From the IMG/VR virus record IMGVR_UViG_3300033182_000816, positions 1 to 63,890 of that record: a stretch of DNA of 63,890 nt. One strand, given 5' to 3'. The translations under genes were made by a program, and so were the position numbers. The notes below the pieces were generated by a model, which was not told the DNA's origin, searched no databases, and was given only the letters and a program-made list of their open reading frames with translations. Origin of the DNA: a virus. Below are positions 1,264-16,374 of this stretch, in pieces (the stretch's first letter is position 1; each line of letters begins with the position of its first letter).

Positions 1264-2391
1264 ATGAAGAAGTTAATTATGGGTTTGGTAGCATCCGTAA
1301 TCATCGCTACTCCGGCATTAGCCGATTATACGTTTATTGTTCCGCAGAAGCCTGGTTCAGGTACAAGTGTGTGGACTTCAATCGTAGCAAAAGAACTTGA
1401 AAAGCACTTAGGTGAGCCTATCAAGATCGTACACATTCCTGGTGCAAACGATATTCCAGGTTTTAATAAGTTCCACAACGAACTACAAAACGACGAAAAG
1501 ACCGTAATGGTATCACACGGTGGTAATGGTGTTTCTTACTTAGTTGACCAAGTTGACTATGACTATTATCAGTATGATCCAATTGGTATGATGAACTTGA
1601 CTATTATTAATGGTCATCGTGTAGAAGTTGATCCTTACAAAGAAAAGATCATTTTCTCAGCAGGTTCTGGTATGAACCCAGATATGATGGCACACATCTT
1701 GTTGAAAGGTGGTCCTGGTCTAACTATGGCTCGTGCTAAAGAAATCTTTGAAAATGATTATAACTTTGTTAAAGGTATGAGCGGTGGCGAAAGACGTCTT
1801 GGTTTCCAACGTGGCGAACTAAACGTTACTCGTGAGTCTACAGCGGCTTATAACAAGTACTACACTGGCAAAGACTACTCTAAGGTATGGTTCTCACAAG
1901 GTGTATACAACTTAGAAACTGGTCTTGTTGACAAAGATCCTAACTGGCCTAACCAATCAATCCACGAAGTGTTTGAACAAAAGTGGGGCGAGAAGCCAAG
2001 TGGTGAGTTCTGGGACGCATTTGTACTTGTTCGTAACTTCCGTGACGTAATGCAGAAAGCACTATGGACTAAAGCAAACAACCCTAACACTCCTGCGTTA
2101 GTTGCAGCATTTAAGAAAATGGCAGCAGACCCAGAGTCAATGGAAAAGATTTACGTTAAGACTGGTAAGTATGATTGGATCATCGGCGACGATATGAAGA
2201 AAGCACTTACTCAACTACGTGGTCAGATCCAGCCTACCACTTATGCTAACTTAGTAGACTTCCTACAATTTACTGGTAAGCCAGCAGTGTACAAAGAAGC
2301 ACTTGCAGGCGCTAAACCTCAAGCAACAGTTGCAGAAGAAAAAAGTTTAGCAGAGACTGCAATCGATAAAGTGTACGGCTGGTTTAAATGA
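1264..2391 (+). CDS. tctC: Periplasmic tricarboxylate-binding receptor (TctC/Bug family)
   Basis: This is the extracytoplasmic solute receptor that would deliver a carboxylate to the TctA permease encoded just upstream. Residues 1-20 form a clear signal peptide (MKK, hydrophobic core, ending TPALA before Asp), so export to the periplasm is expected. The mature protein has the Bug-type layout, with an early VPQKPGSGT segment and a middle GxRRLGFQRGELN stretch that resembles the ligand-proximal loop of TctC proteins. At 375 residues it is longer than the usual 320 or so. The start follows AGGAGAAAATA. The stop overlaps the start of the next phage gene as ATGA, which ties the transporter genes to the phage operon and argues against flanking host DNA. 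Ligand unknown. Confidence 0.8.
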   Translation: MKKLIMGLVASVIIATPALADYTFIVPQKPGSGTSVWTSIVAKELEKHLGEPIKIVHIPGANDIPGFNKFHNELQNDEKTVMVSHGGNGVSYLVDQVDYDYYQYDPIGMMNLTIINGHRVEVDPYKEKIIFSAGSGMNPDMMAHILLKGGPGLTMARAKEIFENDYNFVKGMSGGERRLGFQRGELNVTRESTAAYNKYYTGKDYSKVWFSQGVYNLETGLVDKDPNWPNQSIHEVFEQKWGEKPSGEFWDAFVLVRNFRDVMQKALWTKANNPNTPALVAAFKKMAADPESMEKIYVKTGKYDWIIGDDMKKALTQLRGQIQPTTYANLVDFLQFTGKPAVYKEALAGAKPQATVAEEKSLAETAIDKVYGWFK

Positions 2392-3014
2392 AACCAACGC
2401 TGGTCATTATGACCGGTCCTCAGGGTTCAGGTAATCATCTTTTCAGTAAGGTGCTTGCTTTGAACCCTGAAATACAAGGCTGGCAAGGTTTGCTAAATTC
2501 TTATTGGATAGGACACGATAAAGAGCCGTTTTCCAAATATTGGAAATATCCAAACGAGTTAGCAAACTTTGACTGGTCTACTCATAAGGTTTTTGTTGCG
2601 AGCATAAGTTGTCCATATATAGACAACGGAGAAGTAACAGAGCCCAATTATAAAGATTTTATACAAGAAGCAAAGAAACACGCTAACGTAAAAATACTTA
2701 TAATTGGACGAGATCAAAACATACTCAACCATCAACAAACACGAGTTCGTAAATCAAACACAACTCACATATTCAAACAAAACATTCCAATCTTATTAAG
2801 TAATGATGCATTGTTTATTTCGCAAGAACTGCTGTATTTGTACAGACTTGAATACTTGAACTATATTGAGGATTATCTCTGCGTAGAGCGCACTACACAC
2901 AGCGACAGGGTAGAGAAAATACTGGAGTCCGATGCAAATAAAAAATACATTAAACCAATAGAAGAATTTTGGTTAGACGAGGAAGTCAAAAAGGCATCAC
3001 AGAAGAGGATTTAA
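2388..3014 (+). CDS. P-loop protein, sulfotransferase-like
   Basis: This 208-residue cytoplasmic protein begins with a beta strand followed by GPQGSGNHLF (residues 9-18), a P-loop or PAPS-binding type motif as in sulfotransferase-family proteins. A later strand reads KILIIGRDQN, where sulfotransferases carry the 3'-phosphate-binding Arg. It is the first of about nine proteins of this general build in the island. Its start overlaps the tctC stop (ATGA) and its stop overlaps the next start (TAATG), so it is translated within one operon. Sulfate or phosphate transfer is a guess from the fold; the acceptor is unknown. Confidence 0.6.
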   Translation: MKPTLVIMTGPQGSGNHLFSKVLALNPEIQGWQGLLNSYWIGHDKEPFSKYWKYPNELANFDWSTHKVFVASISCPYIDNGEVTEPNYKDFIQEAKKHANVKILIIGRDQNILNHQQTRVRKSNTTHIFKQNIPILLSNDALFISQELLYLYRLEYLNYIEDYLCVERTTHSDRVEKILESDANKKYIKPIEEFWLDEEVKKASQKRI

Positions 3015-3238
3015 TGAATCACATTATTTTTATTAAATATGCCAGTGCATTAACAATTTTATGCGCAATGGTATTACACGTTCAAGGAATTACTCCTTGG
3101 AACAGTTTTTTACAAATTGCTGGAGCAATAGGCTGGGTATATGTTGGCTATCGTTGGAATGAAAAAGCCATTATACTAAACTTCCTACCTCAATTGTTTA
3201 TTATCATCCCAACTCTAATTTATATGTATTATTTGTAG
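3014..3238 (+). CDS. Small integral membrane protein, 74 aa
   Basis: I do not recognise the family. The 74-residue product is almost entirely hydrophobic, with about three predicted membrane segments separated by short polar turns (a GYRWNEK loop in the middle). The start was placed at the ATG that overlaps the previous stop as TAATG, preceded by AGAGGA; an upstream in-frame start would overlap the previous gene without a ribosome site. It lies between a P-loop protein and an oxygenase. Its role may be membrane anchoring or lipid-related, which is speculative. Confidence 0.65.
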   Translation: MNHIIFIKYASALTILCAMVLHVQGITPWNSFLQIAGAIGWVYVGYRWNEKAIILNFLPQLFIIIPTLIYMYYL

Positions 3239-3239
3239 G

Positions 3240-3246
3240 GTAAATA
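3240..3246 (+). promoter_or_regulatory. T4-late-type promoter element, 4 nt from the start codon
   Basis: GTAAATA is followed by four bases and then the ATG of the oxygenase gene at 3251. If it acts as a T4 late -10 element, transcription would begin within a base or two of the ATG, giving a leaderless or nearly leaderless mRNA. The same arrangement recurs at several other genes here. Confidence 0.5.
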
Positions 3247-3250
3247 CGAT

Positions 3251-3901
3251 ATGGAAAAAAGTAATTGGGAAATACAAAAATCAAAATCATCTTATCACTT
3301 TGATAATAACATAATCGACGAACGCTACGATTGTGTTCGCGAATTAGGCAGATTTAATGGGGTCTGGCAAGACGAAATTGATCAAGTTTTAAAAAGTGCA
3401 AGACCAGTGTCTTGGAGAAATAGGTCAAAAACTGGTAACCCTAACAGACTTGTTAGAGCGGAAGAATATGACTTAGAAGCAGCAGGAGCAGATCCTAATA
3501 TGATTATTTCTAATTTGGAATATAATCTCACTCCAACATTCCAAAAAATGGTTGCTGTTATCGGATTAGACAATGTTGAAAGTCGCATACACGTTCAATG
3601 GCCTGGTCAGGTTTTTACAAAACACATTGATAAGTTAGAAAAATATTGCCCAGAAGATCCAAGTAGGGTAATGCGTATTGTGGTTATGTTAACTGACTGG
3701 GATCAAGGACATTACAATCAATACGGTAACTTTACATATGAACATTGGAAGGCCGGTGATATACATACATTTGATTGGATGAATGTTCCGCATAGTTCAG
3801 CAAACTCAGGACTTACTCCAAGAGTTAGTTTACTAACAACTGGAATTATATCAGAAACGACAAGAAAGTTACTTTCGGGGAATTGGAGTCTTGACATCTA
3901 A
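3251..3901 (+). CDS. Fe(II)/2-oxoglutarate-dependent oxygenase, island paralog A
   Basis: Probable non-haem iron hydroxylase with a double-stranded beta-helix core. The facial triad is visible: HxD at His125 and Asp127 (within FTKHIDKL), and the distal His181 in a DWMNVPHSSAN segment. Arg191, ten residues further on, is placed to bind 2-oxoglutarate. A TDWDxGH segment (about 148-154) and the DWxxMPHxxAN segment are shared with the larger products at 7738 and 10719, so the three are paralogs; this is the short form (216 aa). There is no ribosome site, but a late promoter element sits 4 nt upstream. It overlaps the next gene by 11 bases. The substrate, small molecule or protein side chain, is unknown. 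Confidence 0.8.
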   Translation: MEKSNWEIQKSKSSYHFDNNIIDERYDCVRELGRFNGVWQDEIDQVLKSARPVSWRNRSKTGNPNRLVRAEEYDLEAAGADPNMIISNLEYNLTPTFQKMVAVIGLDNVESRIHVQWPGQVFTKHIDKLEKYCPEDPSRVMRIVVMLTDWDQGHYNQYGNFTYEHWKAGDIHTFDWMNVPHSSANSGLTPRVSLLTTGIISETTRKLLSGNWSLDI

Positions 3902-4406
3902 AATTACTTTTGTTGTTGGAGCACTCGGTGAAGGGAGAGAAAATTATGCTAAACTAATCTCCAAGCAACGTACCGGTACACGATTAAGATCTATTGGATC
4001 GTTATCTTGTTTAGATAACTGGGGAGGTATTTCTGCCTTAACATTAGAATTTTGTTTAGAAGAAATACATCAAGGTTTAACACACCGAGTCGGCAATAGA
4101 CAGAAACTGCTTAACGAAGTTATTTTTAATGGAGTAGGTATATCGATGTATATTAATGAACTTATAGAAATGTTTCCTAAATCTTCTATACATCTGGTTA
4201 GAAGCGATACCTGTAAGTTTGATACAAGCGTTTTGTGGAAAGAAAAAATCCTTATGACAACAGACGATATTACAGACGAGTGGGTTTACAATAACAATAA
4301 ATCAGTGAAAGATTTTATACAGAAATTTGCCAATGATCACTCGTTAAAATGGACTAAGATTGACAACATACCCGAAGATGCAGAGGTTGCCATCTATGGA
4401 GAATAA
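3891..4406 (+). CDS. P-loop-like protein with GVGIS motif, paralog 1
   Basis: The 171-residue product starts at a TTG inside the end of the oxygenase gene. An N-terminal strand leads into GALGEGRENY, a degenerate P-loop. Residues about 83-97 carry FNGVGIS followed by a helix and a Pro at the end (EMFPKS). The same FxGVGIS-helix-P block occurs in the product at 10175, so the two are paralogs. Both sit beside a methyltransferase and an oxygenase of matching sister families. Function is unknown; a transferase or kinase-like nucleotide-binding role is plausible from the fold only. Confidence 0.55.
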   Translation: MTSKITFVVGALGEGRENYAKLISKQRTGTRLRSIGSLSCLDNWGGISALTLEFCLEEIHQGLTHRVGNRQKLLNEVIFNGVGISMYINELIEMFPKSSIHLVRSDTCKFDTSVLWKEKILMTTDDITDEWVYNNNKSVKDFIQKFANDHSLKWTKIDNIPEDAEVAIYGE

Positions 4407-4977
4407 ATCAAGAGCCTTTAGTGATATTCATAAACCTTATATGAATAATCCAAGGACATGGGTTATAGATTATGTTAACCAGTTAAATCCAAACCTTGTT
4501 ATAGACGCAGGTTGCGGAAGGAACCAATATAAGAATAAAATACCTAATCTTATTGGAATAGATCCTGGTGATTATCAAAATGTTGATATGAATGTATCAA
4601 TATTAGATGCTCCGTTTGAACCAGAATGTGCAGACGTAGTTATGGCTATTGGCAGTATACAGTTTGTAAGTTTTAAATTTATTAGACTAAATGTTTCTAA
4701 AATTGTAGATTGGGTAAAACCAAGCGGACATATTGTAATGCGAGTAACTATGAGAACCGACGACACCCTTAAAAGAATACGATTTGACAATAAAGTAAAA
4801 TTAGTTCCATGGACTGAAGAATTGATAAAAGAAATAACAGAACTAAACAATTTAAAATTAGTAGTACAGCCGTTTGAAGAAAAGGTTACTTATTTAAAGA
4901 AACCAGCAAACAATCTTACACGGGTTTATCCTGCAATTAAAAAATACTGGGTATGGCAAAAACCAGAGAGAAAGTAA
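4396..4977 (+). CDS. SAM-dependent methyltransferase-like protein, paralog 1
   Basis: Class I methyltransferase fold. The SAM-binding motif I reads VIDAGCGRNQY (about residues 37-47), followed by IGIDPG for motif II, a SADVVMAIGS-like motif IV, and WVKPSGHIVM for motif V/VI. The ATG at 4396 was chosen because it has CAGAGG upstream and an 11-base overlap with the preceding gene; an earlier ATG would overlap more and lacks a site. It is a clear sister of the product at 9547 (same DAGCG, LIGxD, AxGSxQF and LKPxG pattern). The methyl acceptor is unknown; its operon partners suggest modification of a hydroxylated product. Confidence 0.75.
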   Translation: MENKSRAFSDIHKPYMNNPRTWVIDYVNQLNPNLVIDAGCGRNQYKNKIPNLIGIDPGDYQNVDMNVSILDAPFEPECADVVMAIGSIQFVSFKFIRLNVSKIVDWVKPSGHIVMRVTMRTDDTLKRIRFDNKVKLVPWTEELIKEITELNNLKLVVQPFEEKVTYLKKPANNLTRVYPAIKKYWVWQKPERK

Positions 4978-4980
4978 ATA
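4974..4980 (+). promoter_or_regulatory. T4-late-type promoter element, 5 nt from the start codon
   Basis: GTAAATA, whose TAA is also the stop codon of the methyltransferase, is followed by exactly five bases and the ATG at 4986. With T4-like geometry the first transcribed base would be the A of the ATG. Confidence 0.5.
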
Positions 4981-4985
4981 AAAAT

Positions 4986-5240
4986 ATGCTAAAATGGTTT
5001 AAACAATCGAGAGAACATTTAGACGAAACTGAGTGGACATACTGGCAACACTTAAGACACAGTGTAATGCAGAGTAACCGCTTGGTCGCTACTGCTGTTA
5101 AAAGTTATATCCATGGTGTTTTTCCAATGTGGTTTAAAGCAGATGGTCCTAAAACCGTGTTCCGTATGTACCATCAAATTAAAAGAATACGCCACATTGA
5201 AAAAATGGAAAGAGAAATGAAAGATAGGGGAGAACTATAA
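4986..5240 (+). CDS. Conserved 84-aa protein resembling DUF6356
   Basis: The sequence has the layout I recall for the short DUF6356 family: an N-terminal WFxxSREHLxET segment, an EH-like LRHSV helix, a central SYIHGVFPMWF motif and a GPKTVFRMY tail. It is rich in aromatic and basic residues and the central part is amphipathic or weakly hydrophobic, so membrane association is possible. The ATG at 4986 was preferred over one at 4953 because 4986 lies 5 nt from a TAAATA element and avoids overlap with the previous gene. Function is unknown. Confidence 0.65.
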   Translation: MLKWFKQSREHLDETEWTYWQHLRHSVMQSNRLVATAVKSYIHGVFPMWFKADGPKTVFRMYHQIKRIRHIEKMEREMKDRGEL

Positions 5241-5827
5241 TGGATGTAATGAGTTTACACAGCATTCTCTCATCATACGGCGATGTTGTTGAATTAAATT
5301 ATAAATTTAATAGTGAACAAACCATTAACGAATTAAAACAAATTGAAGATTGGTTGCCGGGCCCAAACGGTAAAACCGCAATCAACTTAACGGGCCCTAT
5401 TGAAGATTTGGGGTTAGATGCTCCGCCCGAAGTTAAACACGCTCGTAACCAACCCTATAATGAAAATTTAGATCGCTGTCCGAGCATTGTAAAGTTTTTT
5501 GATAAGTGGACTGAGTTAGCACGTTGTAGAGTTGCTACTATGAATAAAGGTAGTTTTTTTAGATTGCATAGAGATGCCTATCGACTAAACGATCAATTTA
5601 GAATTTTTATTCCGTTAAACAAAACAGACGATGACGATTGGGTATTTCTATACGATGGTAAAATACAACGATTTAAGCCTGGTGTTCCATACATTTTAAA
5701 TACACGAAAGGTACACGGAAGTTTTGCTATGGCTGACGACATATATCACGTACTTATGAGTGTTTATCTAAACGAACGTAATTTAAAAACTATCGCTCGT
5801 ATGCTTCCAAACTGCGAGGAAAACTAA
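5240..5827 (+). CDS. Aspartyl/asparaginyl beta-hydroxylase-like oxygenase 1
   Basis: 195-residue protein resembling the Asp/Asn beta-hydroxylase branch of Fe(II)/2-oxoglutarate oxygenases. The core reads GSFFRLHRD (HxD iron ligands), then FRIFIPLN, a DGKIQRFKPG strand-turn, and a distal NTRKVHGSF that supplies the second His. A final HVLMSVYLNE strand replaces the usual RIHLxxD, so the 2-oxoglutarate contact is less obvious. It overlaps both neighbours by one base (TAATG). The next gene is a paralog in tandem. Confidence 0.7.
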   Translation: MDVMSLHSILSSYGDVVELNYKFNSEQTINELKQIEDWLPGPNGKTAINLTGPIEDLGLDAPPEVKHARNQPYNENLDRCPSIVKFFDKWTELARCRVATMNKGSFFRLHRDAYRLNDQFRIFIPLNKTDDDDWVFLYDGKIQRFKPGVPYILNTRKVHGSFAMADDIYHVLMSVYLNERNLKTIARMLPNCEEN

Positions 5828-6348
5828 TGGCATCTGCAAACGAAATACATACTAAGTTTGGTAATGTTTTTGCTATGAACATTTTTGCACCTCTTGAAGA
5901 TGTGCATACCAATTTAATTGACCAAGAACGTTACAGAGGCCATCTTGGAAACAAAGTTGCATATCGTTATATTAAAGCACCAGAGAGTTGGGGTATACAA
6001 GGAAAGCACCAAAAAGCAGTACACGTTGAACTGAATGCAGGAAGTTTCTTTGCTCCGCATAGAGATTTCTTTGGTAATACAAATTCGCGCTGGTTACGTT
6101 TAAATTGTTTTGCTAACCATAGTCACCCCGAAGAATGTACATACGTTGTAGATGGACAAATACAACATTTTAGGTCAGGGCAATGGATGTGCGTGAATAC
6201 ATCGTTGGTTCATTATAGTTTTACATTTAAAGACAATACAGTGCATTATATTGTAGATGTTGACATAAGTGATAGAGATACTCTCGATTGGTTTTTAAGT
6301 AACATCGAACACTGTCAGAGACCAAAAGGTGCTGAAGGTTATAAATGA
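5827..6348 (+). CDS. Aspartyl/asparaginyl beta-hydroxylase-like oxygenase 2
   Basis: Tandem paralog of the preceding gene (173 aa). It keeps GSFFAPHRD with the HxD iron ligands, a WLRLNCF strand, DGQIQHFRSG, and a distal TSLVHYSF that supplies the second His. The C-terminal strand HYIVDVDISDRD is closer to the canonical family ending than in paralog 1. Start and stop overlap the neighbours (TAATG before, ATGA after). Substrate unknown; two adjacent diverged copies suggest two sequential or two alternative hydroxylation targets. Confidence 0.7.
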   Translation: MASANEIHTKFGNVFAMNIFAPLEDVHTNLIDQERYRGHLGNKVAYRYIKAPESWGIQGKHQKAVHVELNAGSFFAPHRDFFGNTNSRWLRLNCFANHSHPEECTYVVDGQIQHFRSGQWMCVNTSLVHYSFTFKDNTVHYIVDVDISDRDTLDWFLSNIEHCQRPKGAEGYK

Positions 6349-7040
6349 AATGTTTAACAGTAGTTGTTGCAATGAGCGGGCACGGTGGACACGGCCTTGC
6401 GAGAAAAATTGCTGAAGGGAATCCAGACTATCGTTGGTACGATCACCCAAGAAACAACCCAGATCACCCCAGACACTTTCCAGAATTAGATTTAGCACAA
6501 AATCATTTTAGAAAACGGTTTGCAGATAACAGTGTGTTACCTCACCTCTTTGATAGAATTGAAAGTTTAGTAACTAACTTAGATGAATATTACAATATAG
6601 CATCATTAGAAATAGAAAAATTAAGTCAAGGTAAAAAACTTATTTACGTGTGTCACGATACACCAAAGCATATCAAAGAACGGTTTCCTGAAGCAACTGT
6701 TGTACAAATATTACCAACATCTAACATTTTAGAAAATGTAATTGATAGACACATGATTACTCACATGGAATATCCTGTACAAACTGGCTTACACAAAATA
6801 GAAAATAGAAGACATTTATTAAACAATCTATACTGGGAAATGAATAATTGGAGTATGTCAACTGACCATCCAAGTTTAACAAATTTCCGCAAATATTACT
6901 ACGACAAAACCACAGAAGAAGTCACATCCGACGAGAGAGGCTTCCAACGAGAGTTATATACTAAGCAACTTGAAACAACAGAATATGCTGATGTTTCCGT
7001 AATAGTTGAAACTGTTGAAGAGGCTTTAGAACAATTCTAA
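6345..7040 (+). CDS. P-loop/sulfotransferase-like protein
   Basis: 231 residues. An N-terminal strand is followed by AMSGHGGHGLAR (residues 9-20), a Gly-rich loop in the P-loop position. In the middle is a CHDTPKHIKERFPEAT segment; the minus-strand gene at 14239 carries a matching HDSPDYIASRFPNA, so these two are relatives. No convincing catalytic residue can be named. Overlaps of 4 and 1 bases with its neighbours place it in one operon between two hydroxylases and a GAPGS-type P-loop gene. Confidence 0.55.
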   Translation: MKCLTVVVAMSGHGGHGLARKIAEGNPDYRWYDHPRNNPDHPRHFPELDLAQNHFRKRFADNSVLPHLFDRIESLVTNLDEYYNIASLEIEKLSQGKKLIYVCHDTPKHIKERFPEATVVQILPTSNILENVIDRHMITHMEYPVQTGLHKIENRRHLLNNLYWEMNNWSMSTDHPSLTNFRKYYYDKTTEEVTSDERGFQRELYTKQLETTEYADVSVIVETVEEALEQF

Positions 7041-7741
7041 TGATTGATGAAAGTAAAATAATTTTTTATACAGGTGCTCCGGGGAGTAAATGGAGTGCTA
7101 CTGCTCATTTGATTTCTTTCAATGAAAAGTACCCTATTAACAAATCAGATTATAATGACGATCGTTATTATTTCCATGACGATGTAGGTGTTGCACATCA
7201 CGGCGCTTATTGGGGACCCGGTAATGGTTTTGGTGAAAACTTCCATCAATTGCATACAATGTCTAAAAATGAAATCATTAATGAGATTGAAAAACCATAT
7301 GACGATAAAAACTGGGAACAATATAGATTGATAAAATGTCATCATTTTAGTTCTCAACTTGATTATATTAAAGAAACATTTCCCACAAGTAAAATTATCA
7401 TTGTACTGCGTCCTGACATTCAGTGTTATCGAGGATGGTTAGGTGCTGGCGGGTTTGATAAAATTTCTTACCCAGACTATAAAGCATTTTATAAGAATAG
7501 AGAAACAATGGAAGAATTATTAGTTGAAGAAAACACAGCAGCGAAACAATTCATCCACGATAATGATTTAGACATACACGTTATACGTGAAAAGTATTGG
7601 AGAGACTTTTGGGGCATTGAACGTAATACTGACGAGATTGATACATACATTCGTTCAGTTGAAATGCGACAAACAAGAGGTAAGGCAAGACTGAACTACG
7701 ATGCATTAATCGCACATTATAATTTTGAGGATTTAAAATGA
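7040..7741 (+). CDS. Sulfotransferase-like P-loop protein (GAPGS type), paralog 1
   Basis: The 233-residue product opens with a strand and TGAPGSKWSAT (about residues 11-21), close to the PAPS 5'-phosphosulfate loop of sulfotransferases. A later KIIIVLRPDIQCYRGW segment matches the position of the 3'-phosphate-binding Arg and helix. A GxxxGPGNGFGENF stretch and KCHHFS lie between. It is a paralog of the product at 11675 (GAPGSAWS, a GxYFGPxxEFGExF block, LLVWREP). Each of the two is adjacent to a long oxygenase (7738 and 10719). Sulfation of a hydroxyl made by the oxygenase is an attractive but untested idea. Confidence 0.6.
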   Translation: MIDESKIIFYTGAPGSKWSATAHLISFNEKYPINKSDYNDDRYYFHDDVGVAHHGAYWGPGNGFGENFHQLHTMSKNEIINEIEKPYDDKNWEQYRLIKCHHFSSQLDYIKETFPTSKIIIVLRPDIQCYRGWLGAGGFDKISYPDYKAFYKNRETMEELLVEENTAAKQFIHDNDLDIHVIREKYWRDFWGIERNTDEIDTYIRSVEMRQTRGKARLNYDALIAHYNFEDLK

Positions 7742-8751
7742 GTAATAAAACGGCACAAGACTTTGCTAACATGATGGCGAATATGGATAAAAGTATTGAA
7801 GGGGATGCAAATAATCGCAACTATTCTTCTGGAGAACTTGTGTCAGATCTTGTTCCAAAATCAGTACCTGATTTTCAAGAAGGAGTAAACATCGAAGATA
7901 CAAATTACGAAGATGAACTTTATTCCGATGCGCAACTAAAACGCCACGACGAGGCAAATATGAATGCATTTACAGTTGATGGGATTCCAAGTAGATGGTA
8001 TCATAATAAACTTCGTTCTACTTGGCATTTTAACCCTAAAGCAGATCCTCAAGAAGAAACTTTTAAAATTCTTTGTACATACAAAGGAGATTGGAGTGCG
8101 GGTATTGAACGTGCTATTAGCAGATCGCAAGAACATACAATTGGCAACTATCGAAAACGCAATCAATCTAAGCAAGACCAAATGTTGCACGACGGCGAAA
8201 TGATGGATATCAAGAGAGGTTCTGGACGAGATGATGTAAGTTGTATGTATTACGATACAATTTGCAATTTAAAAGGATTTGACGACAACGGAAAAGAAAT
8301 TTGGAAAATTGACGACCACCCTGCGTATAAACCTTTCTTCAATATGTTTAAAGCCATTGGTATGTACGATGTTCATATGTCGAGAGTACACATTCAACGT
8401 TTAGGGCAAGTTACACCATTCCACATTGATCAACAAATGCGCTATGCTCGTAGCCATTGGCGTAAACGTTGGATTGATGCAGGAGCGGATAAAAATCCTT
8501 TAAAACTACGTAGGGTATTAATTGCACTAACTGACTGGGATTACGGTCACGTATGGCAAATGGGTAACACATATTATCAAGGTTATAACGCAGGCGAATG
8601 CATGGTATACGATTGGACAAATATGCCACACGCAACCGCTAATATGGGATACACTCCTCGCATTACTTTACAAGCAACTGGGTTTATGGATGAAGAAACC
8701 TTTCCGTACTTATTGAAGCACGGATCTAAAGATCATATTATTGAGGTGTAA
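7738..8751 (+). CDS. Fe(II)/2-oxoglutarate-dependent oxygenase, island paralog B
   Basis: Longest of the three related oxygenases (337 aa). The iron ligands are His229 and Asp231 (TPFHIDQQ) and His298 (NMPHATAN), with Arg308 for 2-oxoglutarate. The TDWDYGHVWQMGN and AGECxxYDWTNMPH segments are shared with the product at 10719, and the DWxxMPH core with that at 3251. An acidic N-terminal region of about 100 residues precedes the catalytic part and has no recognised domain. It overlaps the GAPGS P-loop gene by 4 bases and converges with the SGNH gene with a 14-base overlap of ends. Confidence 0.8.
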   Translation: MSNKTAQDFANMMANMDKSIEGDANNRNYSSGELVSDLVPKSVPDFQEGVNIEDTNYEDELYSDAQLKRHDEANMNAFTVDGIPSRWYHNKLRSTWHFNPKADPQEETFKILCTYKGDWSAGIERAISRSQEHTIGNYRKRNQSKQDQMLHDGEMMDIKRGSGRDDVSCMYYDTICNLKGFDDNGKEIWKIDDHPAYKPFFNMFKAIGMYDVHMSRVHIQRLGQVTPFHIDQQMRYARSHWRKRWIDAGADKNPLKLRRVLIALTDWDYGHVWQMGNTYYQGYNAGECMVYDWTNMPHATANMGYTPRITLQATGFMDEETFPYLLKHGSKDHIIEV

Positions 8752-9514: not shown

Positions 9515-9519
9515 ACTCA

Positions 9520-9525
9520 TACTTA
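9520..9525 (-). promoter_or_regulatory. Late-type promoter variant TAAGTA, 5 nt from the start codon (minus strand)
   Basis: On the minus strand TAAGTA is followed by five bases and the ATG at 9514. The variant G in place of A also occurs before 22572 and 55981 with the same spacing. Confidence 0.4.
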
Positions 9526-9531
9526 GCCATC

Positions 9532-9538
9532 ATAAATA
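9532..9538 (+). promoter_or_regulatory. T4-late-type promoter element, divergent
   Basis: ATAAATA lies 8 bases upstream of the ATG at 9547 and only a few bases from the minus-strand TAAGTA element, so the 32-base intergenic gap could fire in both directions. The 8-base gap includes GAG. Confidence 0.5.
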
Positions 9539-9546
9539 ACAACGAG

Positions 9547-10173
9547 ATGAAATCAGATAGTAACTTAAACAAAAAATTTGATCCTGAAAACTGGTCTGGT
9601 TGGAAGGCTTTTAGACATTACAAATATACTGGATTTAATTTAGTTGACGAAGTAAATGCTTTAGATCCAGACCTTGTTATTGATGTAGGCTGTGGACATA
9701 ACAGATTCAAAGGACACATACAAAATCTAATTGGCTTTGATCAAGAACCGTTTCCATTTGCAGACCTTCACGGCAATATAGGACAGATGCTATTTAGACC
9801 TGAAAGTGCAGATGTTATTATGGCATTAGGAAGCGTTCAGTTTGGAGACAAAGAGTTTGTAAAATCAAACATCGCTAAACTTAACCGTTGGCTCAAACCC
9901 GGTGGGTTTATGATCATGCGTACAATGAAAGACTGGTTCCGACGAGAAGAATATCCTTTCATGGACGAACATTATATTTGGTCGCATGAAGACATTGAGG
10001 AAATAGGAAAAGAAAACAGTCTAAAATTAGTTAAAGGTATATGGACTGAAGAAATTAGAAAACCCAGTGGTCGACTAACAAGTACACGCCTTGCGTGGTG
10101 GTGGCAAAAAGAAGGTGAACTCACCAAACATAAAATAGATATTACAACGTGTAAAATTTTACCCAGGGGATAA
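9547..10173 (+). CDS. SAM-dependent methyltransferase-like protein, paralog 2
   Basis: Class I methyltransferase fold, 208 residues, sister to the product at 4396. Motif I is VIDVGCGHNRF (about residues 44-54), then LIGFDQE, SADVIMALGSVQF and WLKPGGFMIMRT. The C-terminal third (WSHEDIEEIG...WWWQKEG) is partner-specific. It opens a second module in the same gene families as the first (methyltransferase, GVGIS P-loop, oxygenase), with the order reversed relative to 3251-4977. The acceptor is unknown. Confidence 0.75.
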   Translation: MKSDSNLNKKFDPENWSGWKAFRHYKYTGFNLVDEVNALDPDLVIDVGCGHNRFKGHIQNLIGFDQEPFPFADLHGNIGQMLFRPESADVIMALGSVQFGDKEFVKSNIAKLNRWLKPGGFMIMRTMKDWFRREEYPFMDEHYIWSHEDIEEIGKENSLKLVKGIWTEEIRKPSGRLTSTRLAWWWQKEGELTKHKIDITTCKILPRG

Positions 10174-10174
10174 C

Positions 10175-10717
10175 ATGAAATTATATTTTTTTGCAAGCTC
10201 TTTTTACGGCGGGCGTCAAGTAAGAGTTATGCAACGATTACTTGAGAATTTAAAAGAAAAATACGATACAAAATTAGGTGTTGTATTTACAGACGAATCC
10301 CACTTTAATAATCCGTCAAAGGAAAGTATATTAGAGTTAGTTGCAGATAAAATTAACGAATCTAAAGATTATAAAGATTTGTTATTATTTTCAGGAGTAG
10401 GTATTTCTCTTCATATAAAAGCATTGTGGGAATTATATCCGGATGCACAATTTTTTATGATGAAACGCCACGGTAGAAACAAAGAGAATAATGATAAAAT
10501 TTTAATAGGTATAAACGATCCTAATGCAGATACTTCATGGATCAATGATTATAATCTTAATGTTAGACAAGGGATGAATTATGTGGCATCAGAAGCTGGT
10601 GCTTCGTGGGGATTTATAGATAGGCCAATTTTTAGAAGAAACGGCAGAGTTAATTATACTGAAGATAACCAAGCATCAGAAGAAACAACGGTACAAGTTA
10701 TTACGGTAAATATTTAA
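10175..10717 (+). CDS. P-loop-like protein with GVGIS motif, paralog 2
   Basis: 180-residue relative of the product at 3891: both have FxGVGIS, a following amphipathic helix and a Pro (here LWELYPDAQ), then a basic strand (MMKRHGRNK). The N-terminal loop reads SSFYGGRQVR, which is not a good Walker A, so nucleotide binding is uncertain. The start follows GGGGATAAC, one base after the methyltransferase stop. No family name can be given. Confidence 0.55.
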   Translation: MKLYFFASSFYGGRQVRVMQRLLENLKEKYDTKLGVVFTDESHFNNPSKESILELVADKINESKDYKDLLLFSGVGISLHIKALWELYPDAQFFMMKRHGRNKENNDKILIGINDPNADTSWINDYNLNVRQGMNYVASEAGASWGFIDRPIFRRNGRVNYTEDNQASEETTVQVITVNI

Positions 10718-10718
10718 A

Positions 10719-11687
10719 ATGAGTAAAAATATTACCAGAATCATCCCACACGATGAATGGGTAGAAAAACAAAAGGATCTAACTATTCGTCAGGCTGAGT
10801 GGTGGAAGAAAAAATTAAAACATCGTAAAGGTAAAGGACCTAACCCAGGAAGACCGCCAAGAGATTGGATTGACCCAGATACAGGGAAACAGAGCCGTTG
10901 GCTACAAGCAAAAACATTCAGCAATTATGACGAAACAAGATTTGGTCCTGACCCTATAGATACCGTTATCGATAGGCTTGGAATATTTGAAGGCCTTGAC
11001 TTCCAAAAAGATATAGCATATGGCGAAGAACATAACTTTGGACCTACTACGTTATTAGACAGAACCGGAACTCCAGAATACAGAGATCCTAATAGTTCTC
11101 ACTATCCAGGTAGTATGGTAAACGATGCAGAAAAAGTAGGTTTAAATTTAAATGACTTGCCAATGTTTGATAGTGCCCAGGGCGGAGAAAATTGTCAACT
11201 TATTTCTGAGTTTATTGGTTTAGATTATGATGCAGCACAAGCCGGAGCCCAACGTGACTATGGATACGATAGTTTTCATATTCAAAGACCAGGTCATTTT
11301 TTAATGTATCATCATGATCTGTATTATGCCGTTATACGTGATGCAGATATGGAACTTGGTTGGAAGCCTGAGAAATTAAGACGGTTTGTTATTTTCATGG
11401 AAGATTGGAAACCAGGCCATGTATGGATTGTAGGTAATACACATTACAGCCACTGGAGAGCCGGTGAATGCATTACTTGGAATTGGCAGGATATGCCACA
11501 CGGCACTGCTAATTTATCGTCAAGTTCGAGATACAGTTGGCATTTAACTGGATACATGACTGAGAAAAGTTTTAACTTTTACAATAATGGAAATAAAGAT
11601 ATGCGTTATGTCTTAAATGCCAACGGAACAGGGTTTGATACATATATACAAAGAGAGGATGGTAAGAGAGATTTATGTTCAATGTAA
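10719..11687 (+). CDS. Fe(II)/2-oxoglutarate-dependent oxygenase, island paralog C
   Basis: 322-residue paralog of the products at 7738 and 3251. Iron ligands are His198 and Asp200 (MYHHDLYY) and His261 (DMPHGTAN), with Arg271 for 2-oxoglutarate. The MEDWKPGHVWIVGN and AGECITWNWQDMPH segments align with paralog B. The N-terminal 60 residues are very basic (KKLKHRKGKG) and differ from paralog B, which may reflect a different partner or a nucleic-acid or polyanionic substrate. It overlaps the following GAPGS P-loop gene by 13 bases, the same pairing as 7040/7738. Confidence 0.8.
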   Translation: MSKNITRIIPHDEWVEKQKDLTIRQAEWWKKKLKHRKGKGPNPGRPPRDWIDPDTGKQSRWLQAKTFSNYDETRFGPDPIDTVIDRLGIFEGLDFQKDIAYGEEHNFGPTTLLDRTGTPEYRDPNSSHYPGSMVNDAEKVGLNLNDLPMFDSAQGGENCQLISEFIGLDYDAAQAGAQRDYGYDSFHIQRPGHFLMYHHDLYYAVIRDADMELGWKPEKLRRFVIFMEDWKPGHVWIVGNTHYSHWRAGECITWNWQDMPHGTANLSSSSRYSWHLTGYMTEKSFNFYNNGNKDMRYVLNANGTGFDTYIQREDGKRDLCSM

Positions 11688-12382
11688 CATCAGAAAATTC
11701 AACTTTATGGTTTGTTGCAGGTGCCCCAGGGTCTGCTTGGAGTATGATCAGCCACAGATTGAAAAAGACATCGAAGTCTTTTGATTACTCAGACGAAACT
11801 CCAGAGCGTCAGTACAATCTTCCTGAAGAGCATAAAGAAAGAAGTTACGATATTGAAAATGATAAATGGAAAGGGAAAACACACATAGGGAGTTATTTTG
11901 GCCCATATCACGAGTTTGGCGAGCATTTTGATGATTTAACATATTACGATAACAACGTTGAAGATTTCTACAAAGAATGCTTAATTCCGTTTTCAGAGCC
12001 AATGGCAGAAGATAAAATTATTCGTTCTCATTGGTTCGCATACAACCTGGATTGGCTCTGGGAAAATTGTAAAGGACATAAAATGTTGCTCGTCTGGAGA
12101 GAACCCGTTGCTACTAAAAATTGGTGGTATCAAATGGGGGGATGGAATATTCATTTTCCTGTATATAAGTGGTACGACAACGACGAACGTATGTGGGAAA
12201 AAATTCAAGAAGAAAGTAACGCTATTTGGGAGTTTGGACAACGCAAAGGAGTTCAGTGGTTAGATTACGACAACGACAGCGAATGGATTGTAGAAATATT
12301 AGGGAGGAAAAGACATAGACCTAATGCTGCTAATCCAATAATGGAAGATATTATTAAAATAGGTTACCTTGAAATTTCTTAA
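11675..12382 (+). CDS. Sulfotransferase-like P-loop protein (GAPGS type), paralog 2
   Basis: 235 residues, a sister of the product at 7040. Residues about 14-25 read AGAPGSAWSMIS (PAPS-type P-loop). KMLLVWREPVATKNWW corresponds to the 3'-phosphate-binding strand and helix with its Arg. Both paralogs share a GxYxGPxxxFGExF block and a RSHWF/KCHHF strand. Trp and Tyr are unusually frequent, which would suit carbohydrate or aromatic acceptors. The start lies inside the end of the oxygenase gene. Confidence 0.6.
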   Translation: MFNVTSENSTLWFVAGAPGSAWSMISHRLKKTSKSFDYSDETPERQYNLPEEHKERSYDIENDKWKGKTHIGSYFGPYHEFGEHFDDLTYYDNNVEDFYKECLIPFSEPMAEDKIIRSHWFAYNLDWLWENCKGHKMLLVWREPVATKNWWYQMGGWNIHFPVYKWYDNDERMWEKIQEESNAIWEFGQRKGVQWLDYDNDSEWIVEILGRKRHRPNAANPIMEDIIKIGYLEIS

Positions 12383-12389
12383 ATTTGGT

Positions 12390-12395
12390 TAAATA
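12390..12395 (+). promoter_or_regulatory. T4-late-type promoter element
   Basis: TTAAATA-type element (core TAAATA) 21 bases upstream of the ATG at 12417. A leader containing AAAGGATG would carry the ribosome site, the conventional arrangement. Confidence 0.45.
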
Positions 12396-12416
12396 TACGA
12401 TAAAGGATGTAAAAAT

Positions 12417-13004
12417 ATGCCACAACTTCATATTATTATTGCAAAAATTGGATCAGGTTTTTCTTATGTTGCAGACGAATTAGAAAAGGCGCTGGTTGAT
12501 AAGCACAGCGATAGCAACAAAGTTGCTCAAGTAGGCAACGGCGGAATGAAACAATGGAAGCGTTTTATTCAAAACCCGGATGGTTCGAGCCCGAGCAGAG
12601 CAGTGCTAAGTTTTGTATCGGAAAGATTTCCAACATTTGTATCATTAAATCCTGAAGTTGAAGATCTTGTTCTTAGTGGGCCAGTTGTAATGATGAACTT
12701 AGATGCAATTATTAGAGACTATCCTGGATCTATCCTTTATTTTATTGACCGTGTTTCATCAGAAGAACTTAGCAATCAAGCAAGTAATTTTTACGCTAAT
12801 AACCCAACTAACGACGACGATGCATGGAACGCTCTTAATGCAGCCATTAATGATGCGTACGATAGTGCAGAGTCAACACACGGCCCGTCTATGCAGGTAT
12901 ATAAAAACTTTTTCTGGGATTTAGATGAAGAGGCAATTGTGGTTGAGCCAAGCGAAAAAACTACTTTATCTTATCTAAAACGTGTTGGAATAGTTACTTT
13001 ATAA
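12417..13004 (+). CDS. P-loop-like island protein
   Basis: 195 residues. The N-terminus reads IIIAKIGSGFSYV, a strand and short Gly-rich loop. A central LVLSGPVVMMNLDAI...YPGS block parallels the GVGIS-helix-P block of the products at 3891 and 10175 and the VITGPGLI block of the product at 13636, so these four may be one diverged family. Acidic (many Asp and Asn) C-terminal half. No catalytic residues can be named. It converges with the hydroxylase at 12999. Confidence 0.5.
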   Translation: MPQLHIIIAKIGSGFSYVADELEKALVDKHSDSNKVAQVGNGGMKQWKRFIQNPDGSSPSRAVLSFVSERFPTFVSLNPEVEDLVLSGPVVMMNLDAIIRDYPGSILYFIDRVSSEELSNQASNFYANNPTNDDDAWNALNAAINDAYDSAESTHGPSMQVYKNFFWDLDEEAIVVEPSEKTTLSYLKRVGIVTL

Positions 13005-13559
13005 GTAAGTTCCGTCTACGTCAACTACGAGATGAATTCTGTCAGTAGAGCCGCCATTAACAACTCTATGTTCGAACTCTAAGTTTCTAACTTCATAAAC
13101 TGTATCGAGTTTCATATTAACTCTTAATTTTCCTCCATACCAATAACAGTCGTTGTTAGTTTGGATAGGAATATGAAATCTATGAATGTTTTCTGGATGA
13201 GGGTATACGTCTACGTGTTTATACACTTCTTGTCCTGCTGGTAGCATAATCAAACAAGCAGCCCACTCGCCAACATTCATTACATTACGTAATTCGTTCA
13301 ATACGCTGTTAACTTCGGGCGCAAACGTTGGCATGATATCATGCTCTAACATATGGCCTTCTTCAAAGTACATATCAGCATCTGTTTTTCCTGCAGGATT
13401 TGGAACAGATCTTAAAAAGATACTTTTTGTATGTCTATGCGGTGAAAACGTTTCCTGTCTACCAGTAACAAGATCCCACATTTCGTTAGTAACTTTAGCC
13501 GCCATTCCTGCTGAAATGTGACTATTTAATTCAAATAACTTTTTAATAGGTGTGTTCAT
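12999..13559 (-). CDS. Aspartyl/asparaginyl beta-hydroxylase family oxygenase
   Basis: Minus-strand 186-residue protein and the most canonical Asp/Asn hydroxylase of the island. It has YKHVDVYPHPENIHRFHIPIQ (HxD iron ligands), WYGGKLRVNMKLDTVYEV, and the distal EHRVVNGGSTDRIHLVVDV, where the His completes the triad and the Arg of DRIHL binds 2-oxoglutarate. A late promoter element stands exactly 5 nt upstream of its ATG, with no ribosome site. In other organisms this family hydroxylates protein side chains, LPS lipid A chains or peptide precursors; the target here is unknown. Confidence 0.8.
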   Translation of the reverse strand: MNTPIKKLFELNSHISAGMAAKVTNEMWDLVTGRQETFSPHRHTKSIFLRSVPNPAGKTDADMYFEEGHMLEHDIMPTFAPEVNSVLNELRNVMNVGEWAACLIMLPAGQEVYKHVDVYPHPENIHRFHIPIQTNNDCYWYGGKLRVNMKLDTVYEVRNLEFEHRVVNGGSTDRIHLVVDVDGTYL

Positions 13560-13564
13560 ACTAC

Positions 13565-13570
13565 TATTTA
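13565..13570 (-). promoter_or_regulatory. T4-late-type promoter element, 5 nt from the start codon (minus strand)
   Basis: Reading on the minus strand, CATAAATA is followed by five bases and the ATG at 13559. It is one arm of a divergent pair with the element at 13581. Confidence 0.55.
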
Positions 13571-13580
13571 TGCCTTAGAA

Positions 13581-13586
13581 TAAATA
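13581..13586 (+). promoter_or_regulatory. T4-late-type promoter element, divergent partner
   Basis: AATAAATA on the plus strand, 49 bases upstream of the ATG at 13636. The leader contains AAGGAG. It is separated by only 10 bases from the minus-strand element. Confidence 0.5.
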
Positions 13587-13635
13587 CAACTATAAAAAGA
13601 CTTATCCATATTTGACAGTTAAGCAAGGAGAAAAC

Positions 13636-14280
13636 ATGAACTATCATCTTGTATATACACTTCCCGGACAGGGCGGTCAATACGTTACAGAATCATTAAT
13701 TAGAAAATTAGGAAGAAAAAACGGAAGTCGGTTTAGTGCTGAACTTTTTCAATGGGGAGCATACAGTAAGTGGCGTCCTACTACTCCTTATGACGTTGAT
13801 AAATTTTTAAGAAGATTACAAGAGCGAGTAGATAAACACGAAGGTCAACAGCCCGGCGGATATATTTTACAAGATGTGGTTATTACAGGTCCTGGACTGA
13901 TTCACCCAGCAAACTTTTTTGAAGCCTTTCCGTCATTAGAAAATCAAAAAAGATACTATGTGGCACCAGCAGAGTGGTCAGGACAAGCAAATAAAATATT
14001 AATTAATAAGAATGCACAATTTTTAAATAATGTTAATGCATATAGAAATCTTCGTGATAGAGTAGCCAACTCTAAGTTAGACGAAACTGTGCTATCTTCA
14101 GTGTCGGCTCCGTTTAGAGACTTAGTTTCTAAATATTATCAAAACCTATCAGAATTAGGAAGACCTTTTGTGCCATTTGAGTCTTGGGCTCTTGACGAAT
14201 CAAACGAGATTGTTGTAAATTCAGTTGACGGCAAGCCTTTAAGACACAGCGACAGAAATATTAAAATCGCTATCGCTTAA
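13636..14280 (+). CDS. P-loop-like island protein (GQGGQ motif)
   Basis: 214 residues. The ATG at 13636 has AAGGAG seven bases upstream; a TTG further upstream lacks a site. The N-terminal strand LVYTLPGQGGQYVTESL has a Gly-rich loop in the P-loop position, and a later VVITGPGLIHPANFFEAFPS block matches the product at 12417. Function unknown. A strong stem-loop with a following T-rich run starts 9 bases after its stop codon. Confidence 0.55.
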   Translation: MNYHLVYTLPGQGGQYVTESLIRKLGRKNGSRFSAELFQWGAYSKWRPTTPYDVDKFLRRLQERVDKHEGQQPGGYILQDVVITGPGLIHPANFFEAFPSLENQKRYYVAPAEWSGQANKILINKNAQFLNNVNAYRNLRDRVANSKLDETVLSSVSAPFRDLVSKYYQNLSELGRPFVPFESWALDESNEIVVNSVDGKPLRHSDRNIKIAIA

Positions 14281-15105
14281 TAATATTTTGTACCTGTCGT
14301 CTACATTATCGAGAGACAGGTACATTTTTATTTCTTCAATATTAATACTATTCCAATTAATGTTTAGTACCTTTGTAGATGTATTCTCTTTTTGAACTGT
14401 TACGTTGTTAATATATTCAAAAAGCCATTTTGTATATTCAACATCAAATGAACTATCATACACAGGTACATTTTTAACTGTCCACGCCCAATAATCTCTA
14501 TAAGTTGCATCTTTATTTTTAGATAATAACTCGTCTACAACATTGGCATACTCGTTTTTATATGCTGGCTTTAATTTTTTATTTCTTAAAATTATAGGAA
14601 ATAATGCGGTTGTACTTTTATAACGTTCTACAACACTACTAAAATCAGAATCAATAAGATTTATAATTTTTGCATTTGGAAATCGAGAAGCAATATAGTC
14701 CGGCGAGTCGTGTACAACCCAAGACACGTAGACGTCTTTATTGAGTAAATCTTGAGCGCAACACATTTTCATTTGCTCAAACCACACAGTATTATAAAAA
14801 TATTCTAAATCTTCAACATTCCAATAACGTTCAATCCTTTCGCCAACAAGTGGAATTGTTGTTCCGTTAACATATCGATCATAATGGTAGGGACTAATGT
14901 CTTTTCCAGTAACTCGCTGGTCGCCTTCACTATTAGGTCTATTGCAAAATATGTCCCAAGGAGATTTACCATTTCGGTCATCAGCATACCAATGTACCTT
15001 GTCGAAACAACTTACTAATCTACCCAAGCGAAACCCGCCTCCGGCTGGACTTGCACATATAAACAACAATTTGTCGCTGTTAATAATGTCGTTGCCCATA
15101 TTCAT
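14239..15105 (-). CDS. P-loop/sulfotransferase-like protein (SPAGGG motif)
   Basis: Minus-strand 288-residue protein. The N-terminus reads KLLFICASPAGGGFRLGRL, a strand, a Gly-rich loop and a helix as in sulfotransferase-like proteins. A WVVHDSPDYIASRFPNAK segment parallels CHDTPKHIKERFPEA in the product at 6345. Either of two ATG codons (15105 or 15099) could be used. It overlaps the GNAT-like gene upstream by 26 bases and so belongs to the AMP-ligase operon. Its last codons overlap the convergent gene at 13636, and the opposing terminator hairpin lies within its coding region. Confidence 0.55.
   Translation of the reverse strand: MNMGNDIINSDKLLFICASPAGGGFRLGRLVSCFDKVHWYADDRNGKSPWDIFCNRPNSEGDQRVTGKDISPYHYDRYVNGTTIPLVGERIERYWNVEDLEYFYNTVWFEQMKMCCAQDLLNKDVYVSWVVHDSPDYIASRFPNAKIINLIDSDFSSVVERYKSTTALFPIILRNKKLKPAYKNEYANVVDELLSKNKDATYRDYWAWTVKNVPVYDSSFDVEYTKWLFEYINNVTVQKENTSTKVLNINWNSINIEEIKMYLSLDNVDDRYKILLSDSDFNISVAVS
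14289..14335 (+). terminator. Intrinsic terminator-like hairpin
   Basis: A perfect 10-bp inverted repeat (14289-14298 and 14315-14324, TGTACCTGTC and its complement) encloses a 16-base loop and is followed by TTTTTATTT. It starts 9 bases after the stop of the plus-strand gene at 13636 and lies inside the 3' end of the convergent gene. Confidence 0.6.
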
Positions 15106-15658
15106 CTCTTGCTTGTTTATACTTAGAAATATTTAACTTCCATACACTTTGGTCTGTATAGAAAAGTTCCATCTTTTCTACAACACATTCTACAATACCT
15201 TGCCTTTCTAATAATTTAAAAATGCTATGACTTTTTGACATGGACTTAATACCATCTGGATTACTCCAATTTGTAGTTATAACAATATCGTCATATCCTT
15301 CCATGCTTGCCCATGTAATCTGTCTCGGTAAATGAAAAAAGAATGGGATAGAATTCATGTGTGTTTTTGTTAACTTTCCTGTCCAGTTTTGATATTTAGG
15401 CAACGTTGCTCCTCTAAACAACCCTCTATACACATTACCAACTTCTGGTAAAGGGTGGCACCCGCTTACAGACACGATCTTATGATAATTGTCATCCCAA
15501 GTTAGGTAGAACTGTCCGTTGTTTTCGAGACACCAATCAAGTCTCATTGCTTTTAGACTCTTGTTATTATCGTAACCCAAGTGTTCGCATTCCTTACAGA
15601 ACTGTTCCAACTTGGGGATATCATTTTCAGTAAACGGAGTTGTTATTAAATTCATCAT
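15080..15658 (-). CDS. GNAT-like acyltransferase candidate
   Basis: 192 residues on the minus strand, start overlapping the end of the ANL-ligase gene (ATGATG), so the two are co-translated. It begins with a GNAT-like opening (FTENDIPKLEQFCKEC) and continues GQFYLTWDDNYHKIVSVSGCHPLP, a beta hairpin typical of strands 2-4 of that fold, then VYRGLFRGATLP. A clean acetyl-CoA loop (R/QxxGxG/A) is not visible, so the call rests on layout. Its coupling to an AMP-ligase suggests that it transfers the activated acyl group, which is inference. Confidence 0.45.
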   Translation of the reverse strand: MMNLITTPFTENDIPKLEQFCKECEHLGYDNNKSLKAMRLDWCLENNGQFYLTWDDNYHKIVSVSGCHPLPEVGNVYRGLFRGATLPKYQNWTGKLTKTHMNSIPFFFHLPRQITWASMEGYDDIVITTNWSNPDGIKSMSKSHSIFKLLERQGIVECVVEKMELFYTDQSVWKLNISKYKQARDEYGQRHY

Positions 15659-16344
15659 GCTCTTCCGTTGTAGTATAAGTTTGAATTTTGAAAAATTACC
15701 TTATCGCCTGTATCATACCAATCGTCGTATATAGAAATATCTCCTCTTACAAAAAGCCTACCGTCTACAACTCTCCATATACAAAAATAATTATTACCTA
15801 AGATCGTTGTTCCTGCCGGAGAAGTATTTTCATCAATTTGATCTATATCAATGTATGTTTTATTGATTGCTATTGGCCCAACTTCTGTCATTCCCCAGTT
15901 AGCAATAAACGTTGCTCCCCGTTTGACAAATTCTCTAATAATGTTCCATTCTACTCTATCGCTACCACAGGTAACGGTGATACCATTAAAGGTTGCTTCC
16001 CTAAAACCTTTAGTACCCATTATTGCTTTTGCATGATCTGGAGTTAAATGCGTATGTGTGTAATTATGTATTACTCTCATAAAACGATAAGCATTAAAAT
16101 CTTCAATAGTAACTTTTGCTCCTATACTATGTGCAGGTAATGTTTGTGCCAAGAGCCCACCTGCGTGTTGCGTTTTGCAGACTGTATATACCTTGCTATT
16201 TTTGGATAACTTTTGACTTTCAATTGCTGCTCGATTAGCCGCCCGAAGTTTTTCCGGAGTTTGGAACAACTGTTTTGGAGTTCCTGTGGTACCAGAACTT
16301 AAAAGTGTAATACCATTTTTTAATATACTATCTAAATTGAGCAT
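15655..16344 (-). CDS. Minimal ANL-superfamily AMP-forming ligase
   Basis: 229 residues. It carries the phosphate loop LLSSGTTGTPKQ (about residues 14-25, core motif A3), the adenine-site motif NWGMTEVGP (A5) and YDTGDKV (A7, ribose-binding Asp), in the right order. The superfamily activates carboxylates as acyl-adenylates. Typical members are 450-600 aa. This one starts almost at A3 and stops after A7, so the N-terminal subdomain and the C-terminal lid with the catalytic Lys are missing. The ATG at 16344 is preferred because a TAAATA element lies just upstream of it; an in-frame ATG nine codons earlier lies before that element. The lid might be supplied by another protein. Confidence 0.75.
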   Translation of the reverse strand: MLNLDSILKNGITLLSSGTTGTPKQLFQTPEKLRAANRAAIESQKLSKNSKVYTVCKTQHAGGLLAQTLPAHSIGAKVTIEDFNAYRFMRVIHNYTHTHLTPDHAKAIMGTKGFREATFNGITVTCGSDRVEWNIIREFVKRGATFIANWGMTEVGPIAINKTYIDIDQIDENTSPAGTTILGNNYFCIWRVVDGRLFVRGDISIYDDWYDTGDKVIFQNSNLYYNGRA

Positions 16345-16355
16345 CGTTCTTCTGT

Positions 16356-16361: not shown

Positions 16362-16374
16362 ACAACCACATCTA

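Follow-up and report, generated by a model that had tools for sequence, protein, structure and literature searches.

What would a virus gain from carrying an importer side by side with a dense run of group-transfer enzymes? The question is raised by the first quarter of IMG/VR virus record IMGVR_UViG_3300033182_000816, whose full 63,890 bases are called the window here, and whose tail-fibre and related phage genes resemble those of T4-like marine phages in homology matches. A sequence-only reading had described an island of about 20 small, dense and mostly overlapping genes, and this was borne out at 2388-16371. The island exceeds the extent noted there, as upstream lie TctA and TctC of a tripartite tricarboxylate transporter (TTT), a pair that had been missed (Table 1). 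Our tentative preference is to read the island as a tailoring module that recurs in a variable region of marine T4-like phages and would modify a glycan or lipid of the host envelope. Among the open-licence papers searched, none describes the combined module.

Scanning viral contigs with an oxygenase alignment returned 79 loci, in which mapping revealed TctC, TctA, Fe(II)/2-oxoglutarate (2OG) oxygenases, proteins of the GAPGS family, methyltransferases, and a trio of AMP-ligase, Gcn5-related N-acetyltransferase (GNAT)-like protein and g18. Two further scans, seeded with TctA and with the AMP-ligase, were meant to avoid circularity, and redundant loci were removed. The 62 TctA clusters that remained contained TctC in 61 cases, an oxygenase in 52, a methyltransferase in 48 and a GAPGS protein in 39, while the 53 AMP-ligase clusters contained the GNAT-like protein (49), the g18 family (45) and the small g4b family (32). 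Loci seeded with PhoH, a gene of the same phage that lies far from the island, carried none of the counted families (0/80). The arrangement of the genes is stronger evidence of co-occurrence than these bare counts. The trio is adjacent in several orders, g18 and the GNAT-like protein are fused in some loci, and the convergent layout of the window, where the rightmost part of the island is a leftward operon of the trio with overlapping ends (14239-16371), is repeated in twelve clusters. The doubt whether these genes ever co-occur elsewhere is answered by many other phage contigs.

Like the TTT transporters of Proteobacteria (TctABC / Bug), the island has a TctA domain and a putative TctC-type binding protein. 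Unlike them, it has no recognized TctB small membrane subunit, a role to which the small hydrophobic g1b is not assigned, and its TctC clade is near-exclusive to viral contigs and nearly absent from cellular genomes: a TctC pattern search gave two loci only in 84,980 species genomes of bacteria and archaea, and the same two alone came back when sets of 237 and 289 genomes were searched. Viral TctA also stands apart, forming one group separate from 24 alphaproteobacterial TctA proteins (support 89/100; the cellular sample is small). The 5' end of TctA is cut by the contig start, leaving 414 amino acids compared with ~480–507 in homologues. TctC, which overlaps g1 by 4 bases, has a signal-peptide-like N-terminus and a weak PDB match to BugD (E 0.012), with no Pfam match at E 0.01 and no NCBIfam or PHROG match. 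A 7.9 kb contig in a 'Pelagibacter' metagenome-assembled genome (MAG; L322) carries TctA-TctC-GAPGS-oxygenase-methyltransferase plus a phage-like neighbor gene; it was rejected as a bacterial locus, being most likely a virus contig misbinned into the MAG. The only likely cellular relative found is an Omnitrophota MAG contig (L323, 432-6446), with viral-clade TctA/TctC among several apparent S-adenosylmethionine (SAM) methyltransferases.

The short AMP-ligase of the sequence-only reading, g20, passes the Pfam AMP-binding cut-off. Its core motifs A3, A5, A7 and A8 are present, with SSGTTG, WGxxE, W..T.D and the final R nearly invariant across 44 sequences. Of the 384 positions in the Pfam profile, the match spans just 170-350, and the family is always short (225–274 amino acids in 93 open reading frames). 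Because the N-domain lacks its first part and there is no C-terminal domain, we call g20 half-size and do not file it as a normal acyl-CoA synthetase; it is an example of an adenylating enzyme cut down to half the normal length and maintained by selection. Its GNAT-like neighbor g19 is a tentative assignment resting on a partial PDB match (E 0.01), as Pfam matched none of 28 family members and a narrower GNAT profile found no relative in the genome contigs.

Nine proteins of the island had been described as P-loop or sulfotransferase-like. The Walker A motif GxxxxGK[ST] is absent from all nine, and their reading as P-loop NTPases or kinases was rejected. The transferase half of the description fared better, with two families (g8/g14 and g7/g18) confidently predicted from structure models to adopt a sulfotransferase fold. 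The model of g8, a GAPGS protein, has a mean pLDDT (per-residue model confidence) of 94.6 and is nearest to tyrosylprotein sulfotransferases (TPST1, Z 10.1), with adenylate kinases at Z 7.6. For g18 (pLDDT 90.0), the 50 best structural matches were all sulfotransferases or close homologues (best Z 10.3). A histidine is conserved throughout both families, His101 in 59/59 GAPGS sequences and His132 in 38/38 of the g18 family, and Arg124 is conserved in 49 GAPGS sequences. The GAPGS 'KSH..F' histidine followed by 'FP..KI..V.R' resembles the catalytic-His region of cytosolic sulfotransferases. Sulfotransfer_3 was matched weakly by 9/29 GAPGS members, and profile comparison linked the g8 and g18 families weakly, with no convincing link for the g1 and GVGIS families. 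GAPGS profiles found 138 members; a scan of viral contigs with a two-member GAPGS alignment had returned nothing usable.

The six claimed Fe(II)/2OG oxygenase-like proteins are supported by conserved HxD...H motifs and by Pfam. Among aligned members of the g2/g9/g13 family, the first H and the D are kept in 74/74, the second H in 73/74, and the 2OG-binding Arg in 70/74. HxD..H is kept in 31/31 members of the g5/g6/g16 family, in which the Arg was not counted, and g6 and g16 pass the Pfam Asp_Arg_Hydrox cut-off. The two sister methyltransferases, g4 and g11, were confirmed as paralogs, with g11 at the Pfam Methyltransf_11 cut-off and g4 a weak match, and the claimed SGNH hydrolase g10 is left tentative by a below-cut-off DUF6473 match. 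Most other island proteins had no good family match in Pfam and PHROGs scans. Median dN/dS (the ratio of nonsynonymous to synonymous substitution rates) is 0.07–0.18 in nine families, which together with the conserved catalytic residues indicates, at the sequence level, working enzymes under purifying selection. Elsewhere, one phage contig (L027, 5954-11979) holds six g2/g9/g13-family oxygenases inside 6 kb, and a short Fe/2OG-oxygenase-like protein lies outside the island in the window (26869-27369).

The paralog sets that had been described were confirmed by blastp inside the window, for the oxygenases (g2/g9 E 2e-27, g9/g13 7e-22, g2/g13 1e-13), the hydroxylases g5/g6 (6e-11), GAPGS g8/g14 (2e-16), GVGIS g3/g12 (3e-5) and the P-loop-like g7/g18 (1e-10). 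The trees do not bear out their proposed origin by repeated amplification of one logic. The copies g2, g9 and g13 are ~4 changes per site apart and 0.5–0.8 from copies in other phages; g8, g14, g11 and g18 are also each nearer to other-phage copies than to their own sister in the window, and the set contains nothing closely related to g4 or g7. Recent local amplification was therefore rejected, and the changed order of the sets reflects old family diversity and reshuffling.

None of 50,697 GenBank phage records matched g1, g18, TctC, the AMP-ligase or the GNAT-like protein. GAPGS and the methyltransferase matched only the marine single-cell virus AG-345-D19, the oxygenase matched one cyanophage weakly, and TctA gave distant matches only. 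Cultured phages and sequenced bacteria almost never have the combination, and because most tested families are absent from these records, current reference sets miss the biology of the module.

Relatives of the island carry further genes whose theme is group transfer and whose membership is varied. In other phages, the neighbors of TctA include a class I glutamine amidotransferase and a ferritin-like di-iron family (~20 loci each), the di-iron assignment drawing on motifs plus a single weak NCBIfam match. Amidinotransferases (PDB E 1e-40) and NodU-type carbamoyltransferases are also its neighbors in 12 loci each, and radical SAM proteins occur farther from TctA. Kinases resembling adenosine 5'-phosphosulfate (APS) kinase are paired with a protein resembling nicotinamide-nucleotide adenylyltransferase (NMNAT) in ~17 relatives' loci. 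They were rejected as proof of a supply of the sulfate donor 3'-phosphoadenosine 5'-phosphosulfate (PAPS), given NCBIfam scores below cut-offs, the nature of the partner, and the absence of an APS-kinase-like gene from the window. The two domains are fused in one protein in L083 (12691-13590), L084 (9270-10091) and L085 (13831-14703).

Taken as parts, the enzyme families and folds agree with the earlier formula 'hydroxylate, then sulfate, methylate or acylate', which is a fair reading of them. In the order of reactions that we infer, TctC and TctA would supply the infected cell with a carboxylate. Perhaps that compound, or else another carboxylate, would be activated by the half-size ligase and then transferred by its GNAT-like partner. 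Fe/2OG oxygenases would hydroxylate the acceptor or product, the sulfotransferase-fold proteins would add a sulfate-like group, and the SAM methyltransferases would cap the product. The acceptor would most likely be a glycan or lipid of the host envelope, or a precursor of one, and the surface of the infected cell would be remodeled, for example against co-infection. It is possible, if somewhat doubtful, that the near virus-only importer feeds its carboxylate to the ligase and its GNAT-like and sulfotransferase-fold partners, with the oxygenases and methyltransferases finishing a product made in infected cells only. A shared module coupling a transporter to group-transfer enzymes would, if true, give marine viruses a tailoring chemistry of their own.

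We prefer an envelope glycan or lipid because the corresponding type of region in pelagimyophages is where O-chain genes cluster, genes believed to change the host's surface and proposed to block superinfection (PMC7029224), and because sugar-type genes (23890-26909) and tail fibers (from 29424) lie downstream on the contig. Those pelagimyophage and cyanophage O-chain/lipopolysaccharide clusters are alike in belonging to T4-like phages, lying near tail fibers, having sugar-precursor genes on the contig and being proposed to remodel the surface; they consist of glycosyltransferases and sugar synthases, whereas the island has oxygenases, sulfotransferase-fold proteins, methyltransferases, a half-size AMP-ligase and a TTT transporter (PMC7029224). 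Several observations weigh against envelope decoration by a functional module. No glycosyltransferase was recognized among the 20 island proteins scanned, and most glycan tailoring needs no carboxylate importer. The C-terminal domain lost from the ligase is the one that bears the catalytic Lys. In the alignment of g8/g14 relatives there is no conserved Ser at +8 from the conserved Arg, a position of the PAPS 3'-phosphate-binding motif; GAPGS is for this reason not filed as a PAPS sulfotransferase. Finally, the profiles were trained on the very loci that supplied the counts and the control covers another genome region, so the counts are compatible with a hot-spot effect.

The main rival is a small-molecule pathway, in which an imported carboxylate precursor would become a soluble sulfated, methylated or amidinated metabolite, used in the cell or released. 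Transporter genes adjoining tailoring genes, an acyl-adenylating ligase with a GNAT-like protein, and the amidinotransferase and carbamoyltransferase of some relatives all suit it. We nonetheless judge it unlikely, as no carrier-protein or polyketide synthase/nonribosomal peptide synthetase core was recognized in the island or in ten annotated neighbor families, and an exported product would be of little gain to a short-lived lytic infection.

Less likely is a hypervariable hot spot of unrelated auxiliary genes, where TctA/TctC and the 2OG enzymes separately serve nutrient or 2OG metabolism. Gene order is indeed highly variable between loci, and cyanophage 2OG oxygenases have been linked to nitrogen status, with a proposed role in tuning it and 2OG (PMC3037559). 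Viral contigs of SUP05 bacteria list tctA, its role stated to be unknown, and a 2OG-FeII oxygenase as separate auxiliary genes (PMC4164917). This is the only earlier record that we found of the two together on viral contigs; there tctA was recognized by domain match only, and TctC, the AMP-ligase/GNAT unit and the module are undescribed. The adjacency of the trio, the g18-GNAT fusions and the repeated convergent layout make such a hot spot improbable as a full account, as does the bacterial Omnitrophota contig, where viral-clade TctA/TctC again lie beside apparent methyltransferases. Sulfotransferase-like and 2OG genes also recur in phages of OM43 bacteria, which carry Sulfotransfer_3 and 2OG proteins, the function of the former being called unclear; the genomes are few, no single cluster is described, and no transporter or AMP-ligase is reported alongside (PMC10580990). 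The module offers testable genes for the role of many such marine-phage enzymes.

Post-translational modification of virion or host proteins (tyrosine sulfation, Asp/Asn hydroxylation, methylation) would fit the tyrosylprotein sulfotransferases that are structurally nearest to g8 and g18, the Asp/Asn-hydroxylase-like proteins, and the long tail-fiber genes nearby. However, the fold similarity is modest (Z ~10, 11–14% identity) and does not give the substrate, and the transporter and AMP-ligase would have no clear role, which leaves this explanation quite improbable. Hypermodification of phage DNA bases is the least probable: the 2OG oxygenases, methyltransferases and GNAT-like protein of the island are of types known from such systems, but the contig, which may be incomplete, has no Thymidylat_synt homologue, a family that the same search detects in 9 control genomes, and no Tet_JBP match in a search that had no positive control.

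Table 1. Genes of the transporter pair and tailoring island in the window
Feature	Position	Strand	Evidence
TctA, TTT transporter large membrane subunit	10..1254	+	Pfam TctA (PF01970) E 1.4e-78; viral TctA group in tree
TctC-type periplasmic binding protein, nearly virus-only clade	1264..2391	+	45-48% identity to copies, six phage loci
g1, TGPQGSGNH P-loop-like protein, often after TctA-oxygenase	2388..3014	+	in 23/62 non-redundant TctA loci
g1b, small hydrophobic protein	2969..3238	+	homologues in 17 loci
g2, Fe(II)/2OG oxygenase	3251..3901	+	HxD..H..R
g3, GVGIS protein	3891..4406	+	blastp to g12 E 3e-5
g4, class I SAM methyltransferase-like	4360..4977	+	blastp to g11 E 7e-37; Methyltransf_11 weak
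g4b, 95 aa, recurrent small family	4953..5240	+	in 32/53 AMP-ligase loci
g5, Asp/Asn-hydroxylase-like Fe/2OG protein	5240..5827	+	HxD..H 31/31 in family
g6, Asp/Asn-hydroxylase-like Fe/2OG protein	5827..6348	+	Asp_Arg_Hydrox 24.6 bits, cut-off 22.6
g7, g18 paralogue (sulfotransferase-fold family)	6345..7040	+	blastp E 1e-10
g8, GAPGS sulfotransferase-fold protein (predicted)	7040..7741	+	model pLDDT 94.6; TPST1 Z 10.1; His101 59/59
g9, Fe(II)/2OG oxygenase	7738..8751	+	HxD..H..R
g10, SGNH-like/DUF6473-like, tentative	8738..9520	-	DUF6473 E 0.001, below cut-off
g11, class I SAM methyltransferase	9547..10173	+	Methyltransf_11 21.5 bits, cut-off 21.2
g12, GVGIS protein	10175..10717	+	g3 paralogue
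g13, Fe(II)/2OG oxygenase	10719..11687	+	orthologues in L004, L002, L016, L195
g14, GAPGS sulfotransferase-fold protein (predicted)	11675..12382	+	g8 paralogue
g15, GVGIS-related protein	12417..13004	+	L004 orthologue E 3e-16
g16, Asp/Asn-hydroxylase-like Fe/2OG protein	12999..13559	-	Asp_Arg_Hydrox 34.2 bits
g17, P-loop-like protein	13612..14280	+	weak link to g15 family
g18, sulfotransferase-fold protein (predicted), AMP-ligase and GNAT partner	14239..15105	-	model pLDDT 90.0; best Z 10.3; His132 38/38
g19, GNAT-like protein, tentative	15080..15658	-	partial PDB GNAT match E 0.01
g20, half-size AMP-forming ligase	15655..16371	-	Pfam AMP-binding 53.2 bits; PDB feruloyl-CoA synthetase E 5e-10

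Outside the island, the second, sugar-related cluster of the window (23890-26909) is an unbroken run of KdsA-like, glycosyltransferase-like, RfaE-like cytidylyltransferase-cupin and HAD-like genes, of which the RfaE-like match alone was tested. Further downstream, among the tail-fiber genes that begin at 29424, four predicted tail proteins within 29424-43766 (starts 29424, 39594, 39878 and 42078) have similar N-terminal stretches of ~35–50 residues, and this common stretch is probably an attachment segment.

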